Assembly (NCBI RefSeq): GCF_004959935.1
Contig: NZ_SMYN01000010.1
Location: 247-64,246, forward strand
DNA from: Falsirhodobacter xinxiangensis
GTDB lineage: Bacteria; Pseudomonadota; Alphaproteobacteria; Rhodobacterales; Rhodobacteraceae
DNA: 64,000 nucleotides
Direction of reading: 5' to 3'
Positions 47,228 to 52,688 of this stretch are shown piece by piece. The notes beneath the pieces were generated by a model. It did no database searches and was not told where the DNA came from. It saw only the letters and a list, made by a program, of their open reading frames with translations. The translations under genes and the position numbers were made by a program. The number at the start of each line of letters is the position of its first letter. The first letter of the stretch is position 1.

Positions 47228-47767
47228 ATGAAAAAGCTTTTCCTGTCGACCATCCTTGCCACTGCGACCGCCGGTTTTGCCTTTGCGCAGGACACGACGA
47301 CCCCGCCCGCGACCGATGGTGACACGCAGGCCCCGCTGACGGGCGAGAACATGACCCCGACCAACGATCCCGCCGATACCGGCACCGGAACGATGGCCGA
47401 TCCCGCCGTGCCGACCGCGCCCGCAACTCCGGAAACCACCAACCCGGACATGGCCACCACCTCGTCCCGCGAAGGCTACAGCCCCGTGATGACCGAAGCG
47501 GTGACGTCCGAGAACCTGACCGGCGCCAACGTCTATACCGCCGAGGATGCCGATGTGGGCACCGTGTCCGAACTGGTGCTGGACGATCAGGGCAAGGTCA
47601 CGCAGGTGATCGTCGATGTGGGCGGATTCCTCGGGATCGGCGCGAAGCCGGTGGCGCTGACCATGACCGAGCTTGAGATTCTGCAACAGGACGATGGCGA
47701 CGACATCCGCGCCTATACCACCATGACCCGCGAAGAGCTGGAGGCACTGCCCGAATACGAGGGCTGA
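47228..47767 (+). CDS. Exported PRC-barrel domain protein
   Basis: 179 residues: signal peptide (MKKLFLSTILATATAGFAFAQ), a Thr/Pro/Ala-rich low-complexity linker to about residue 80 and one PRC-barrel (VTSENLTGANVYTAEDADVGTV to VDVGGFLGIGAKPVAL). PRC-barrel proteins in alphaproteobacteria are often stress-induced; functions are unclear. It is divergent from treY, has a GAGGA site and a possible stress promoter, and ends at a strong terminator. A link with trehalose synthesis through stress response is plausible. Confidence 0.88.
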   Translation: MKKLFLSTILATATAGFAFAQDTTTPPATDGDTQAPLTGENMTPTNDPADTGTGTMADPAVPTAPATPETTNPDMATTSSREGYSPVMTEAVTSENLTGANVYTAEDADVGTVSELVLDDQGKVTQVIVDVGGFLGIGAKPVALTMTELEILQQDDGDDIRAYTTMTREELEALPEYEG

Positions 47768-47777
47768 CGCCGATGCG

Positions 47778-47808
47778 AGGGGGGCGCTTCGGCGTCCCCC
47801 TTTCATTT
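47778..47808 (+). terminator. Intrinsic terminator after the PRC-barrel gene
   Basis: A 9-bp stem (47779-47787 with 47792-47800, one G-T wobble; an A-T pair extends it at 47778/47801) with a TTCG loop is followed by TTTCATTTT. A clear rho-independent terminator that isolates this gene from the radical SAM operon. Confidence 0.88.
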
Positions 47809-47835
47809 TGACGTCCGTGAACATATAGTGAACGC

Positions 47836-49053
47836 ATGAAGTCCCTGACCGAAAAGCTCGCGATCCTTTCCGATGCCGCGAAATACGACGCCTCCTGCGC
47901 ATCCAGCGGCGGGGCGAAGCGGGATTCGCGCGATGGGAAGGGGGTGGGATCGTCGGGCGGTTCGGGCATCTGCCACGCCTATGCCCCGGATGGGCGCTGC
48001 ATCAGCCTGCTGAAGATCCTGATGACCAATTTCTGCATCTATGACTGCGCCTATTGCGTGAACCGTGTGTCGTCCAAGGTGGAGCGCGCGCGGTTCTCGG
48101 TCGAGGAAGTGGTTCGGCTGACCATCGAATTCTATCGCCGGAACTATATCGAAGGGTTGTTCCTGTCGTCGGGGATCATCCGGTCGTCGGACGATACGAT
48201 GGCCGACATGGTGCGGATCGCGAAAACCCTGCGCGAGCGGGAGGGGTTTCGCGGTTACATCCACCTGAAGACCATCCCAGACGCCTCGCCCGAGTTGATC
48301 GAGGAGGCGGGAAAATATGCGGACCGGCTGTCGATCAACATCGAAATGCCGACCGAGGCCGGGCTGTCGCAGCTTGCGCCGGAGAAATCGGCCAAGGGTA
48401 TCCGCCGCGCGATGGGCGAGGTGCGCCTGCGCCGCGAAGCCTCGCGCGAGGTGACGCATACGGGCAAGCGCCGCGCGGCCTTTGCGCCCGCCGGGCAATC
48501 GACGCAGGTGATCGTAGGGGCGGATGCCGCCGACGATCGCGACGTGCTGACGCAGAGCGCGAACCTCTATGCCAATTATGGGCTGAGCCGGGTGTATTAC
48601 TCGGCCTTCTCGCCCATTCCCGACGCGTCGCGGATGCTGCCGCTGAAAAAGCCGCCCCTGATGCGGGAACATCGGCTGTATCAGGCGGATTGGCTGTTGC
48701 GCTTCTATGGGTTCGACGTGTCCGAGATCGCCTCGCAGGGGATGCTGGATCTGGAGGTGGACCCCAAGACCGCATGGGCGCTGGCGCATCGCGAACAGTT
48801 TCCCGTGGATGTGAACCGCGCGGCGCGCGAGATGCTGCTGCGCGTGCCGGGGTTCGGCGTGAAGACGGTGGACCGGATCGTGGCGGCGCGGCGGCGCGGG
48901 GCGGTGCGGTTCGAACATCTGGTGGCGATGGGGGCGGTGACGAAACATGCCAAGCCCTTCATCACGCTTCCGGGTTGGACGGCGCGCGGGCTGGATGACG
49001 ATGCGCTTCGGGCGCGATATGCCCCCGCGCCGGAACAGTTGAGCCTGTTCTGA
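47836..49053 (+). CDS. UdgX-linked radical SAM protein with HhH tail, putative DNA modification/repair
   Basis: 405 residues. The SAM [4Fe-4S] motif CIYDCAYC has Cys67, Cys71 and Cys74, followed by a barrel with GLFLSSGIIRSSDDT, YIHLKTIPDASPELI and SINIEMPTEAGL. At about 325-360 a helix-hairpin-helix (LLRVPGFGVKTVDRIVAARR) implies nucleic-acid binding. It matches the family described as radical SAM linked to uracil-DNA glycosylase; no reaction is established. It overlaps the udgX-type gene by one base (TGATG), so both are made together. Cys21 and Cys46/Cys55 in the N-terminal part could serve another cluster. Confidence 0.9.
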   Translation: MKSLTEKLAILSDAAKYDASCASSGGAKRDSRDGKGVGSSGGSGICHAYAPDGRCISLLKILMTNFCIYDCAYCVNRVSSKVERARFSVEEVVRLTIEFYRRNYIEGLFLSSGIIRSSDDTMADMVRIAKTLREREGFRGYIHLKTIPDASPELIEEAGKYADRLSINIEMPTEAGLSQLAPEKSAKGIRRAMGEVRLRREASREVTHTGKRRAAFAPAGQSTQVIVGADAADDRDVLTQSANLYANYGLSRVYYSAFSPIPDASRMLPLKKPPLMREHRLYQADWLLRFYGFDVSEIASQGMLDLEVDPKTAWALAHREQFPVDVNRAAREMLLRVPGFGVKTVDRIVAARRRGAVRFEHLVAMGAVTKHAKPFITLPGWTARGLDDDALRARYAPAPEQLSLF

Positions 49054-50471
49054 TGCGGCAGGTCGTGCTGCCCATCATCGGCACGGTGGCGGCATGGCGG
49101 ACCGAGGCGCGGGCGCTGGCCGCCGAAGGCATCGCGCCCGAACATGTCATCTGGCATCGCGGGACCGCCCCGCCGGACCTGTTCGCCGGGGATGCGCCAA
49201 AGGGGCAGGGACGCAGCCTGACGATCCCCCGTGCCGCGCTGGCCGAGATCGAGGCGGCCCTGTGTCATTCCGACCCCGAACGCTTTGCTCGCGCCTATCG
49301 TCTGGTGCTGCGGCTGAACGACGGGCTGGTCTGGGGCGATCGAAGCGATGCCGATATCCGCCGCGTGATGGAGCAGGCCAAGTCCGTGCGCCGCGACATC
49401 CACAAGATGCACGCCTTCGTTCGCTTCCGCGAGGTGCCCTCGGAGGGCCGCCGCGCCTTTGCCGCATGGTTCGAGCCGGAGCATCACACGGTCGAAGCCG
49501 GGACGCCCTTTTTCGCCAAACGCTTCGGCGACATGGATTGGGTGATCGCAACGCCCGAGATCACCGCCCGTTTCGACGGCACGCTGACCTTCCACGAGAC
49601 GACCGCCGCTGCCCGCCCGCCCGAAGATGCGACCGAGGAGCTTTGGCGCACCTATTACGCCAATATCTTCAACCCGGCCCGCGTGATGGTGCGCGCGATG
49701 CAGTCGGAGATGCCGAAGAAATACTGGAAGAACCTGCCCGAAGCGGATCTGATCCCCGGACTTATCCGCGATGCCGACCGCCGCGTCGCCGAGATGGCCG
49801 CGCGCGAAGCCGAGGAGGCGCCCGCCCGCCGCCTTGCCGTCGCCCGCCGGATGGCCGTGCCCGAACGTCCGGTGCCGACCGCCGGAACGCTGGACGCGCT
49901 GCGGGCCGAGGCGGCGGCCTGCACCCGCTGCCCGCTTCACGCCCCCGCCACGCAGACGGTGTTCGGGATCGGCCCCGCCGATGCCGAAGTGATGTTCGTG
50001 GGCGAGCAGCCGGGCGATCAGGAGGATCTGGCGGGCCGCCCCTTCGTCGGCCCCGCAGGCCAGATCTTCGATCAGGAGGCGGAGGCGGCTGGGCTGGACC
50101 GCGGCCGCCTTTACATCACCAATGCGGTCAAGCATTTCAAATTCGCCCCGCGCGGCAAACGCCGTCTGCACCAGAAGCCGAATGGCAGCGAAATCCATGC
50201 TTGCCACACATGGCTCGATCAGGAACTGGCGCTGGTGAAGCCGAAGCTGATCGTCGCGATGGGCGCGACCGCGCTTCAGGCGCTGACCGGGTCGGGCGAG
50301 GGCATTCTGAAGCGCCGCGGGCAGGTGGAGCGGATGGAGGATGGAACGCCGGTGCTGGTCACGGTCCACCCCTCCTACCTTCTGCGCCTGCCTGATCCCG
50401 AACTGGCGAAGGCGGAGCGCCGCCGGTTCCGCGAGGATCTGGAACAGGCGGCGCGGCTGTCGCGGCCCTAG
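49053..50471 (+). CDS. udgX: UdgX-type uracil-DNA glycosylase fused to radical-SAM-linked N-terminal domain
   Basis: 472 residues in two parts. Residues 1-260 match the uncharacterised domain linked to the radical SAM partner (IFNPARVMVRAMQSEMPKKYWKNLPE). Residues about 280-470 are a family-4-like uracil-DNA glycosylase of UdgX type: CTRC (Cys290, Cys293), GEQPGDQED, TNAVKHFKF, the KRRLH loop with His373, ACHTWLDQEL (Cys384) and HPSYLLRLP. In M. smegmatis UdgX the KRRIH histidine forms a covalent bond to the abasic DNA site; the histidine is kept here with Leu for Ile. His361 stands where family 4 has a cluster cysteine. Confidence 0.9.
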   Translation: MRQVVLPIIGTVAAWRTEARALAAEGIAPEHVIWHRGTAPPDLFAGDAPKGQGRSLTIPRAALAEIEAALCHSDPERFARAYRLVLRLNDGLVWGDRSDADIRRVMEQAKSVRRDIHKMHAFVRFREVPSEGRRAFAAWFEPEHHTVEAGTPFFAKRFGDMDWVIATPEITARFDGTLTFHETTAAARPPEDATEELWRTYYANIFNPARVMVRAMQSEMPKKYWKNLPEADLIPGLIRDADRRVAEMAAREAEEAPARRLAVARRMAVPERPVPTAGTLDALRAEAAACTRCPLHAPATQTVFGIGPADAEVMFVGEQPGDQEDLAGRPFVGPAGQIFDQEAEAAGLDRGRLYITNAVKHFKFAPRGKRRLHQKPNGSEIHACHTWLDQELALVKPKLIVAMGATALQALTGSGEGILKRRGQVERMEDGTPVLVTVHPSYLLRLPDPELAKAERRRFREDLEQAARLSRP

Positions 50472-52606
50472 GCCTCGCGTTTCATCCGCAGATCGGGCGG
50501 GAAGATCAGCTCGCTTTGCGGCGGCGGGACGGAAATGCCCTTCTCCTCGAACACGTCGCGCACAAGCTCGGTGTATTTGTTGCCGATGCCCCAGTGTTTT
50601 CCCGGCAGCGTCTTGATGTTGGCGCGCAGGCTCATGGTGTTGTCCAGCGCCGCGATCACCCCGTCATGGGCCAGACCGCCGATGATGACGTGATCGTTGT
50701 CCAGCGCCTTCAGACGCTCGAACGCCTCGTCCAGCGCGGCCTTCACCTTGGCGACGTTCTCGTAATAGGCGACCTTGACGACCTGCTGGTGCTGGCCGAA
50801 ATCGCGGGTGCGGTTGGTCACGGTATCGACGGAACTGAACGGCACGATGTTGATCGCGCCATCGCCCGCCCGGACGCGCACCGATCGAATCGACACTTTC
50901 TCCACGCTGCCGGCGATGCCCGCCACCTCGATCACGTCGCCTTCGTTGATGGCGTTTTCAAGCTGGATGAAGATGCCGGTGATCACGTCCTGCACCAGTT
51001 TCTGCGAGCCGAAACCGATGGCCAGACCGATCACCCCGGCACCGGCGATCAGCGGCGCGATGTCGATGCCAAGCTGCGACATGGTGATCATGGTGGCAAA
51101 GATGGCGATGGCGATGGTGAAGGCGTTGCGGAACAGCGACAGCAGCGTTCTCGTCCGGCTGGTGGCCGCGCCGCCCCCCGCTGCGTGGCGCAGGCGATAG
51201 GCGATCCAGCCGTCGATCACCGCCCAGATGACCGCGGCGATGGCGGCGATCAGCAGCGCCGACAGCAGCCGCCACAGGAAGTTCTGCATCCCCTCGGTCA
51301 TCAGCACGGAACTGTCGATCCAGCCCCAGCCCGTGACGCCCACCGTCACGGCAACGATCAGCAGCACCAGGGCGACGATGGCGGCCATCGTGGTCATCAG
51401 CCGGTTGAGGCGCGATTCGATGTTCGGCAGCGTGCCCAGCACGGCCTTGGGCAGCCGCACACGGATTGCCGATGCCGATTTCAGCAGACGCAGCGCACAG
51501 ACGAGGATCAGCAGCGCGATCACGGTATAGATCGTGCCGCGCAGGACGATCTCCTCGATCAGGTTGGGGCGGGTGACGGCGATGAACCAGCAGTAGACGA
51601 CATAGACGAAGCCCAGCACCGGCCAGATGCGGCGCCATGTGGAATGCGCCCCTTCGGCCACCGCCGATCCGGGCTGGCCGTCGGCGGTCGCGCGGTCGCC
51701 CCGCGCCTTGTCCAATGCGCGCGCCATGCGGCGGATGGCGATCAGCGCAAGGATGGCGGCGATGGTCGCGATCAGGGTGCGCAGCGGGCGCACGGTGGCG
51801 AACCCCAGCCACAGGCGCGTCAGCGGCAGGATGAACAGGAAGCCCTGAATCACCAGCCCCGCCACCATGACGATATTGCCATAGACGATGCTCTGCGCCG
51901 CCGGGGCAAGGATCGACAGCGCCGGTTCCTTGTCGGCATCCGGGCTGGTGATCGCGCGCAGCAGCACGCGGACCAGTCCGAAGACGAAGAAGGCGTTCAG
52001 ATACAGCGTCTGCGACTGGCTCGGCACCCCGGTCGACGAAAACACCGCCGTTGCCAGCACGAAGCCGAGCGCCCATGCCAGATGCAGCGCGATCAGCCGG
52101 AACAGGACCGAAATCCCCGTCGCCTTGGCGCGCTGGGCGAAGCCGGCGGTTGGCGGCGGCGTGTGCCTGCGCGCAAAAGCCCCCGCGATCTGGCCAAGGA
52201 TGGCCGAGGCGGCAATGGTGGTCACGACGGTCAGGATCAGCGCGATCGCCTCGGGCGACAGGCTTCCGGCGGTGCGCACGTCCTGCACCAGCACCCAGAT
52301 GCGCGTCAGTTCCGTCCAGAGGCGCCCCAGTTCCGCGGTCAGTTCGCGTCCGAAGGTCGCGGTCTGTTCGGCGATCTGCTGGGCGAAGGCGGGCGGCTCC
52401 TCGGGGGCGGCGGTGGCGGCAGGGGTGGCGGCGACCTGCGCCTGAAGCTGCTGGACTAGCGCATTGCGCGAGGTTTCGTTCTGCAGGATGTCCAGAAGCT
52501 GTTGCACCGCCTGATCCGAAGGCGGTGCCGCGGCGGGTTCCTGCGCCATCGCCATCATCGGCAGCAGCATCACGAGAAAGGCGGCGAGGATCGCGCGGAG
52601 AGGCAT
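50468..52606 (-). CDS. MscS-family mechanosensitive ion channel
   Basis: 712 residues from ATG 52606, chosen for its AGGAAG site seven bases upstream and a proper signal peptide (MPLRAILAAFLVMLLPMMAMAQ). A periplasmic helical region precedes about nine to eleven membrane helices and the MscS core: PLIAGAGVIGLAIGFGSQKL pore helix, then the beta domain with INEGDVIEVAGIAGSVEKVS and TNRTRDF. It relieves osmotic downshock by gating under tension. It is convergent with udgX; the two stops share CTAG at 50468-50471. Confidence 0.93.
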   Translation of the reverse strand: MPLRAILAAFLVMLLPMMAMAQEPAAAPPSDQAVQQLLDILQNETSRNALVQQLQAQVAATPAATAAPEEPPAFAQQIAEQTATFGRELTAELGRLWTELTRIWVLVQDVRTAGSLSPEAIALILTVVTTIAASAILGQIAGAFARRHTPPPTAGFAQRAKATGISVLFRLIALHLAWALGFVLATAVFSSTGVPSQSQTLYLNAFFVFGLVRVLLRAITSPDADKEPALSILAPAAQSIVYGNIVMVAGLVIQGFLFILPLTRLWLGFATVRPLRTLIATIAAILALIAIRRMARALDKARGDRATADGQPGSAVAEGAHSTWRRIWPVLGFVYVVYCWFIAVTRPNLIEEIVLRGTIYTVIALLILVCALRLLKSASAIRVRLPKAVLGTLPNIESRLNRLMTTMAAIVALVLLIVAVTVGVTGWGWIDSSVLMTEGMQNFLWRLLSALLIAAIAAVIWAVIDGWIAYRLRHAAGGGAATSRTRTLLSLFRNAFTIAIAIFATMITMSQLGIDIAPLIAGAGVIGLAIGFGSQKLVQDVITGIFIQLENAINEGDVIEVAGIAGSVEKVSIRSVRVRAGDGAINIVPFSSVDTVTNRTRDFGQHQQVVKVAYYENVAKVKAALDEAFERLKALDNDHVIIGGLAHDGVIAALDNTMSLRANIKTLPGKHWGIGNKYTELVRDVFEEKGISVPPPQSELIFPPDLRMKREA

Positions 52607-52688
52607 GGGCAGGCTTCCTGAACTGGTCTCGGGCATGTTCCTGATGGCCCGGTAGGGGGGCGGGGCGCAACCCCCAACCGCAGCGCGA

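Follow-up and report, generated by a model that had tools for sequence, protein, structure and literature searches.

In a stretch of 64,000 nucleotides from Falsirhodobacter xinxiangensis (the window; the genome comprises 3.97 Mb in 80 contigs), a gene for a radical S-adenosylmethionine (SAM) protein of 405 amino acids (47836-49053, + strand) is followed by a gene of 472 amino acids (49053-50471, + strand) encoding a DUF4130 domain fused to a UdgX-type uracil-DNA glycosylase (UDG). Both were taken from the list of open reading frames and classified with NCBIfam and Pfam. With moderate confidence we read them as a two-gene SOS operon whose core consists of the radical SAM enzyme and DUF4130, acting together in the repair of a DNA lesion or the modification of a base, with UdgX as an accessory. 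An earlier note, made from the letters of the sequence, had described the two genes as sharing one base, and the last base of the radical SAM stop codon is indeed the first base of the fusion's ATG. The locus is real, correctly placed and rightly read as DNA repair, although the pair to which it belongs has been catalogued and in part published, and nothing about this member is out of the ordinary. The present study adds the local SOS box, the strict pairing with DUF4130 in the face of an optional UdgX, a six-cysteine pattern in the radical SAM protein and the clade-wise distribution of different boxes.

Family membership and published record

The radical SAM protein scored 583 bits against TIGR03916 (cut-off 343.5) over positions 1-392 of the 415-position profile, a family which NCBI names 'rSAM_link_UDG, putative DNA modification/repair radical SAM protein'. 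The N-terminal part of the fusion matched TIGR03915 ('SAM_7_link_chp') with 184 bits (cut-off 112.25), its TIGR03916 neighbour overlapping it by 1 base, and the C-terminal part matched TIGR03914 ('UdgX family') with 334 bits (cut-off 190). Pfam reported Radical_SAM and a weak helix-hairpin-helix for the first protein, and DUF4130 (129 bits) and UDG (120 bits) for the second. As the three families are linked by NCBI naming and all three curated cut-offs are exceeded here, the locus is an ortholog of a known pair, and no feature distinguishes it from that set. Among the best 80 of 574 loci, the named protein closest to the radical SAM enzyme came from Roseivivax (79% identity), in keeping with a host from the Rhodobacter group of Alphaproteobacteria. 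We take COG4277 to be this same radical SAM family.

The linkage of radical SAM and UDG genes is already in print, as far as excerpts of PMC3765255 and PMC8565304 go. According to the excerpt of PMC8565304, the SOS network of Bacteroidetes includes an operon of two genes, COG1573-COG4277, with a uracil-DNA glycosylase; earlier work cited there reported that a UDG-based system is SOS-regulated in Verrucomicrobia and in Alphaproteobacteria. This is the same context as that found here. The association is therefore known, because both the NCBI families and these two papers tie the genes together. Literature searches on the pair, DUF4130, COG4277 and the TIGR names yielded no tested activity, a search for mutant phenotypes of the pair yielded none, and the portions of PMC1839093 and PMC10776899 that were available hold nothing on the pair. 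The term 'uncharacterised', used in the earlier note, thus fits the chemistry but not the association, and the fusion's '260-residue domain of unknown function' is a real domain which already bears the names DUF4130 and TIGR03915.

The radical SAM protein is constantly paired with DUF4130

Genomes were surveyed in three sets, namely 200 Pseudomonadota, 289 genomes of the same class and 14 controls, and the best 80 of 574 loci were used as named loci. Among the 200 Pseudomonadota, TIGR03916 and TIGR03915 exceeded their cut-offs in the same 31 genomes and were adjacent in 31 of 31. A broad survey in which the two genes are usually separate and unlinked would have spoken against the earlier note; the linkage it expected is instead conserved, and the SOS box described below bears out its DNA repair context. 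In the same-class set TIGR03916 was found in 22 genomes (9 of these pair genomes are also part of the 200-genome survey) and TIGR03915 in 23, with adjacency in all 22; the odd genome, G357, carries DUF4130 beside a radical SAM fragment scoring 65.6 bits. The radical SAM gene comes first and DUF4130 downstream of it in all 80 named loci, and in 49 of them the two overlap by 1 or 4 bases. The correlation of distances over 71 fused loci was highest for radical SAM and DUF4130 (r 0.70), followed by DUF4130 and UdgX (0.54) and by radical SAM and UdgX (0.44), shared ancestry alone being enough to lift all three values.

The DUF4130/TIGR03915 domain of the window protein spans residues 10-231 (49080-49745, + strand), as delimited by NCBIfam and Pfam and identified as the constant partner by the surveys. 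In an alignment of 45 rows R124, F125, P142, F154, R157, I165 and R210 are invariant, and H117, E141, W163, W198, Y201, W225 and E230 are kept at a level of at least 90%. Such a conserved set of basic and aromatic residues would suit DNA binding. The same invariant residues, as well as the strict one-to-one pairing and adjacency, are also consistent with a different role, in which the radical SAM enzyme modifies DUF4130 itself and repair is carried out by DUF4130 in its modified form. Many radical SAM maturases act in this way on a peptide encoded next to them. Such maturases often carry extra cysteines, and so does the protein studied here. Nevertheless we regard such a maturation as unlikely, given that the C-terminal helix-hairpin-helix of the radical SAM protein points to nucleic acid and that neither NCBIfam nor Pfam reported a SPASM domain for it.

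Two kinds of insertion were seen between the genes. In four loci the two genes are separated by one for a hemerythrin (HHE; L184:4153-4638, L187:7256-7747, L195:7586-8203 and L196:7482-7958). The hosts are two Sphingomonas, one Sphingobium and one unclassified Pseudomonadota metagenome-assembled genome (MAG), and the hemerythrin might protect an enzyme that is sensitive to oxygen. The intergenic gap of a Fulvimarina MAG measures 1269 bases (L164:7234-8502) and contains open reading frames which, judged by eye, resemble a higB/higA-type toxin-antitoxin pair and a deaminase.

UdgX is an optional module with a conserved active site

The UdgX/TIGR03914 domain covers residues 233-465 (49749-50447, + strand) and was assigned by NCBIfam, alignment and fold. 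According to excerpts of PMC10359453, UdgX is defined by motif A (GEQPG), an R-loop (KRRIH) and motif B (HPS...R). All three were found by alignment on the + strand of the fusion gene, motif A as GEQPGD (residues 317-322, 50001-50018), the R-loop as KRRLH (residues 369-373, 50157-50171) with the capture histidine H373, and motif B as HPSYLLR (residues 439-445, 50367-50387). His373, which the earlier note had named as the capture histidine of KRRLH, is matched in the alignment by the histidine of KRRIH in the M. smegmatis protein, and its conservation among fusions could be followed over 72 aligned rows (71 loci and the window): 71 rows have E318, 70 have Q319, all 72 have R371, and H373 and H439 are each present in 71. 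C290, C293, C384 and H361, candidate ligands of a 4Fe-4S cluster, are kept in 64-68 of the 72 rows. M. smegmatis UdgX shares the motifs GEQPG, KRRxH and HPS and 45-47% identity, with template modelling (TM) scores of 0.84-0.94 over the target; it differs in that the UdgX described here is joined to DUF4130 and lies behind a radical SAM gene.

UdgX does not accompany every pair. Of the 31 pairs in the 200-genome survey, 22 have UDG-coding sequence directly behind DUF4130 (including G184, scored as UdgX-present though the UDG-coding part is in another reading frame than DUF4130), 8 have none and 1 is located at a contig end. The named loci comprise 71 fused and 9 unfused cases out of 80, and among the unfused ones L178 has a UDG gene of its own further downstream. 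In the 289-genome survey, where UdgX was judged by frame length, 8 of 23 DUF4130 open frames were shorter than 400 amino acids and hence too short for a fused UdgX. Bacteroides ihuae, one of the 14 control genomes, is listed for TIGR03916 and TIGR03915 and not for TIGR03914; another control, Caulobacter vibrioides, is listed for all three families. On a quick tree built from 121 radical SAM sequences, 21 of them from unfused loci (L038 was left out, its contig ending near the fusion), 11 changes between the fused and unfused state were required, 5 of them forced by starred branches; 42 of 117 branches are weak, and the count is blind to gain versus loss. Conversely, UdgX exceeded its cut-off without a pair over cut-off in 6 of the 200 genomes (G080, G084, G100, G168, G183 and G200). 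In G100 (L094:1483-2346, - strand) a remnant of DUF4130 joined to UdgX begins 6 bases after the end of an exact SOS box, and the genome has no radical SAM gene over cut-off; this is probably the scar of a deletion that took away the radical SAM gene together with the greater part of DUF4130.

UdgX-less pairs and pair-less UdgX thus both occur, so that UdgX and the pair are separable while radical SAM and DUF4130 hardly are. UdgX looks like an optional add-on and DUF4130 like the constant partner. The earlier note had proposed a closer tie, in which the covalent adduct of UdgX and DNA is resolved by the radical SAM enzyme, or else the base recognised by UdgX is a product of that enzyme. The fusions have kept the residues needed for the adduct (H373 in all but one row), the coding sequences of all three domains follow one another after an SOS box, and any adduct that formed would have to be resolved. 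Against this model stand the pairs without fused UdgX in the genome survey and among the named loci, the Bacteroides ihuae case, the changes in the tree, the genomes with UdgX and no pair, and the distance correlation of radical SAM and UdgX, which is the lowest of the three. These observations count against adduct resolution and against modification of the base; we consider the model very unlikely, and adduct resolution was rejected as the core function because 8 of 31 pairs do without a fused UdgX.

As a separate observation, the UdgX domain resembles a solved family-A DNA polymerase of a phage (9qhs) in fold as well as in sequence, and several viral polymerases are among its listed fold matches.

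A LexA box precedes the operon

A motif scan revealed a box of the form GAAC-N7-GAAC (GTTC-N7-GTTC on the - strand; either reading) at 47819-47833, GAACATATAGTGAAC, leaving 2 bases between the box and the start codon of the radical SAM gene. GTTC-N7-GTTC is named as the LexA motif of Alphaproteobacteria in the available text of PMC8565304, and it is thus present in the promoter region here. The earlier note, whose DNA repair context agrees with it, had overlooked this box. A single match means little because the window contains 6 matches to GTTC-N7-GTTC versus 1.67 expected, and it is conservation that decides. Ten of ten loci from the window's own genome and its relatives have exactly one box each. 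In a first set of 30 same-class loci, which includes these ten, every radical SAM gene has a box ahead of it, and in a second set the same holds for 69 of 73 alphaproteobacterial loci. Among the named loci it is present in 71 of 80, compared with 0.38 hits predicted from the density elsewhere in the same loci. The box is also retained where the fused UdgX is absent (L028, L030, L145, L146, L150 and L182); the upstream stretch of G172 lies outside the fetched sequences.

The genome of the window contains 156 matches, versus 89 for the pattern read backwards. From 100 listed of these 156, 15 regions with A+T-rich spacers or tandem boxes were picked by eye and fetched. Seven of the 15 boxes precede genes for lexA, uvrA, uvrD, an imuB-like Y-family polymerase, two umuD-like S24 peptidases and SRAP; the other eight are not ahead of SOS-type genes, and recA was not seen among the 15 regions.

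In other classes of Pseudomonadota the box is mostly a different one. A perfect CTGT-N8-ACAG, presumably the LexA box of beta- and gammaproteobacteria, lies within 150 bases upstream in 6 of 8 loci (L041, L042, L048, L051, L052 and L053), two of which (L051 and L053) also carry a GAAC/GTTC match with one mismatch; it is missing in L026 and L039. The 80 named loci, which served as comparison set, contain it in no case. An Acidovorax locus has CTGT-N8-ACAG with one mismatch, a Verrucomicrobia locus has TGTCC-N4-GAACA upstream, and the faecal contig L117 has the upstream element CAAACAAATGTTCG; we assume that these three resemble the local LexA motifs. Taken together, the pair appears to be under SOS control, and binding of LexA and induction by damage would be expected from the sequences.

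Two further elements were noticed. The palindrome GTCTCA-N5-TGAGAC is found about 40 bases before the start in L039 and in L167, L177 and L179, the latter three from Xanthomonas, Pseudoxanthomonas and Stenotrophomonas; all four are devoid of both LexA box types tested, and the palindrome may be a lineage-specific operator. A tandem GTTC-N7-GTTC pair is located at L018:1501-1526 just past an open reading frame that looks by eye like recG, with no clear gene downstream.

Six invariant cysteines and a helix-hairpin-helix

The radical SAM protein of the window contains exactly six cysteines. C67, C71 and C74 form the CxxxCxxC motif of the radical SAM cluster (48034-48057, + strand), which the earlier note had recognised, and C21, C46 and C55 are located N-terminal to it (codons C21-C55, 47896-48000, + strand). 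Every row of the 121-row alignment has each of these six, and no other reference column exceeds 30% cysteine; the 80 named loci were selected with patterns including C21 or C67/C71/C74, so that these four positions are partly selected there, while C46 and C55 were not in the search patterns and 41 of the 121 rows were obtained by other routes. His47, Tyr17, Asp18, Asp52 and Arg54 are likewise invariant. The three N-terminal cysteines perhaps ligate a second, auxiliary Fe-S cluster, a site predicted from the invariance of C21, C46, C55 and H47. The six-cysteine pattern is the best handle on the chemistry of this radical SAM protein.

At the C-terminus, residues 308-353 (48757-48894, + strand) resemble a helix-hairpin-helix. 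The HHH_5 match of 23.1 bits stays below the Pfam cut-off of 27, but a profile built from 37 relatives had helix-hairpin-helix parts as its top PDB matches (ComEA-related, E 0.008; RuvA, E 0.018). V337, P338, G339 and G341 are invariant in 15 rows, and P338, G339 and G341 remain so in the 121-row alignment. The motif that the earlier note had placed here is hence backed by profile matches and invariant residues despite its low Pfam score, and it supports the nucleic-acid role deduced from it.

In a Foldseek search (E at most 0.001, best 50 of 84 matches considered) the listed matches of the radical SAM model included HydE, MgmA, biotin synthase, RimO, MiaB and ThiH, with TM scores of about 0.3-0.5. 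The best partial matches among those listed, to HydE, biotin synthase and MiaB/RimO (E 4e-7 to 3e-6), have only the common radical SAM barrel in common with the protein, at 13-19% identity. Neither the UPF0004 nor the TRAM domain was reported by Pfam at E 0.01, which sets the protein apart from the methylthiotransferases MiaB and RimO.

A direct reversal of a thymine lesion, as carried out by spore photoproduct lyase (SplB), has to be considered at this point. The wording 'SplB-like radical SAM photolyases' in the accessible part of PMC3765255 implies such a reading, which shares with the protein described here the radical SAM chemistry and the DNA repair context, and both the SOS box and the DNA-binding motif would agree with it. 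No spore photoproduct lyase, however, is present in the best 50 of 84 Foldseek matches or among the 29 PDB profile matches, so that the label 'SplB-like' is not supported as a statement of close kinship. The window protein moreover has its additional N-terminal cysteines. To our knowledge three extra invariant cysteines are not a feature of spore photoproduct lyases, and we judge a lyase-like reversal to be quite unlikely.

Proposed function

The preferred reading, an SOS operon with radical SAM and DUF4130 as its core, can be outlined as follows. LexA bound at 47819-47833 would keep the operon off, and DNA damage would switch it on. The radical SAM protein, anchored to DNA through the helix-hairpin-helix at its C-terminus, would form with DUF4130 a single enzyme for the repair of a DNA lesion or the modification of a base, in which the radical SAM protein may provide the radical chemistry and DUF4130 the recognition of the lesion or strand, with an auxiliary Fe-S cluster presumably held by the three further invariant cysteines. 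UdgX, to which DUF4130 is joined in most alphaproteobacterial loci seen, would by homology and by its conserved residues excise uracil and bond covalently to the abasic sugar. It could thereby tether or shield uracil or abasic sites met in SOS mutagenesis, and would be an accessory rather than a substrate of the radical SAM enzyme.

Several points weigh against this reading. Four of the 73 alphaproteobacterial loci lack an exact box (all four have a match with one mismatch, which chance would provide in about 1 stretch in 10), L026 and the Acinetobacter record L114 have no box of either type tested, and the named gammaproteobacterial loci L167, L177 and L179 have neither type. The loci are also kin, 7 of the 30 in the first set coming from the window's own genus, and both sets may share species. 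In the AlphaFold2 model of the radical SAM protein, which is cofactor-free, the barrel is mostly confident, and the predicted local distance difference test (pLDDT) falls below 50 at residues 22-27, 29-32 and 37-54; the cysteine triad is thus in a low-confidence loop, which fits a missing cofactor but equally disorder. The fusion was modelled with a mean pLDDT of 91, and even so its listed fold-search matches are UDG-type, DNA-polymerase or unnamed chains, which leaves the DUF4130 fold without a named relative among them, and the DUF4130 profile matched nothing in the PDB below E 0.27. Finally, all activities discussed here are predictions, and the radical SAM enzyme could act on protein or RNA.

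A more specific version, which we put forward tentatively and regard as rather doubtful, would be a new SOS-induced repair enzyme in which the second cluster, held by the three cysteines (and His47), acts as redox partner or sulfur donor while a damaged base is repaired or modified by radical chemistry, DUF4130 binds the lesion, and UdgX is a covalent anchor on uracil or abasic sites that is gained or lost by lineages. If true, radical SAM and DUF4130 would work by a mechanism unlike that of spore photoproduct lyase. The pair, found in 31 of 200 Pseudomonadota genomes and behind differing LexA-type boxes, may represent a DNA repair reaction that nobody has assayed. The shift from 'UdgX and radical SAM' to 'DUF4130 and radical SAM, with UdgX optional' guides the choice of proteins for purification, of cysteines for mutation and of genes for deletion.

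Neighbouring genes and distribution

Upstream of the operon lies a gene for a PRC-barrel protein (47228-47767, Pfam), followed by a terminator-like hairpin of 11 pairs (47777-47802, + strand). The hairpin which the earlier note had called a terminator is thus present, but a scan over 5.5 kb gave 3 such sites against 3.2 expected from shuffles, and its existence alone is not significant. A scan for sigma-70 promoters between 46500 and 52000 found none. Downstream, the operon converges on an unrelated gene, as had been noted before, in this case one for a mechanosensitive channel (50468-52636, - strand, Pfam).

A phage origin of the pair was rejected. The 10 'phage' hits consist of two 240-kb Acinetobacter records, the fetched one of which has glyS and glyQ beside the pair and looks chromosomal, and of eight records from human faeces, 4-44 kb long and labelled 'Bacteriophage sp.', the three fetched being marked UNVERIFIED; a search of viral contigs gave 2 loci. 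Anti-phage defence was likewise rejected, as PADLOC gave no match for the fusion and only 12 bits (E 0.04) for the radical SAM protein. Relatives of the radical SAM protein occur on 158 of 72,556 plasmid records (58 Phaeobacter, 15 Paracoccus, 11 Azospirillum and others), of which 142 were typed as non-mobilizable.

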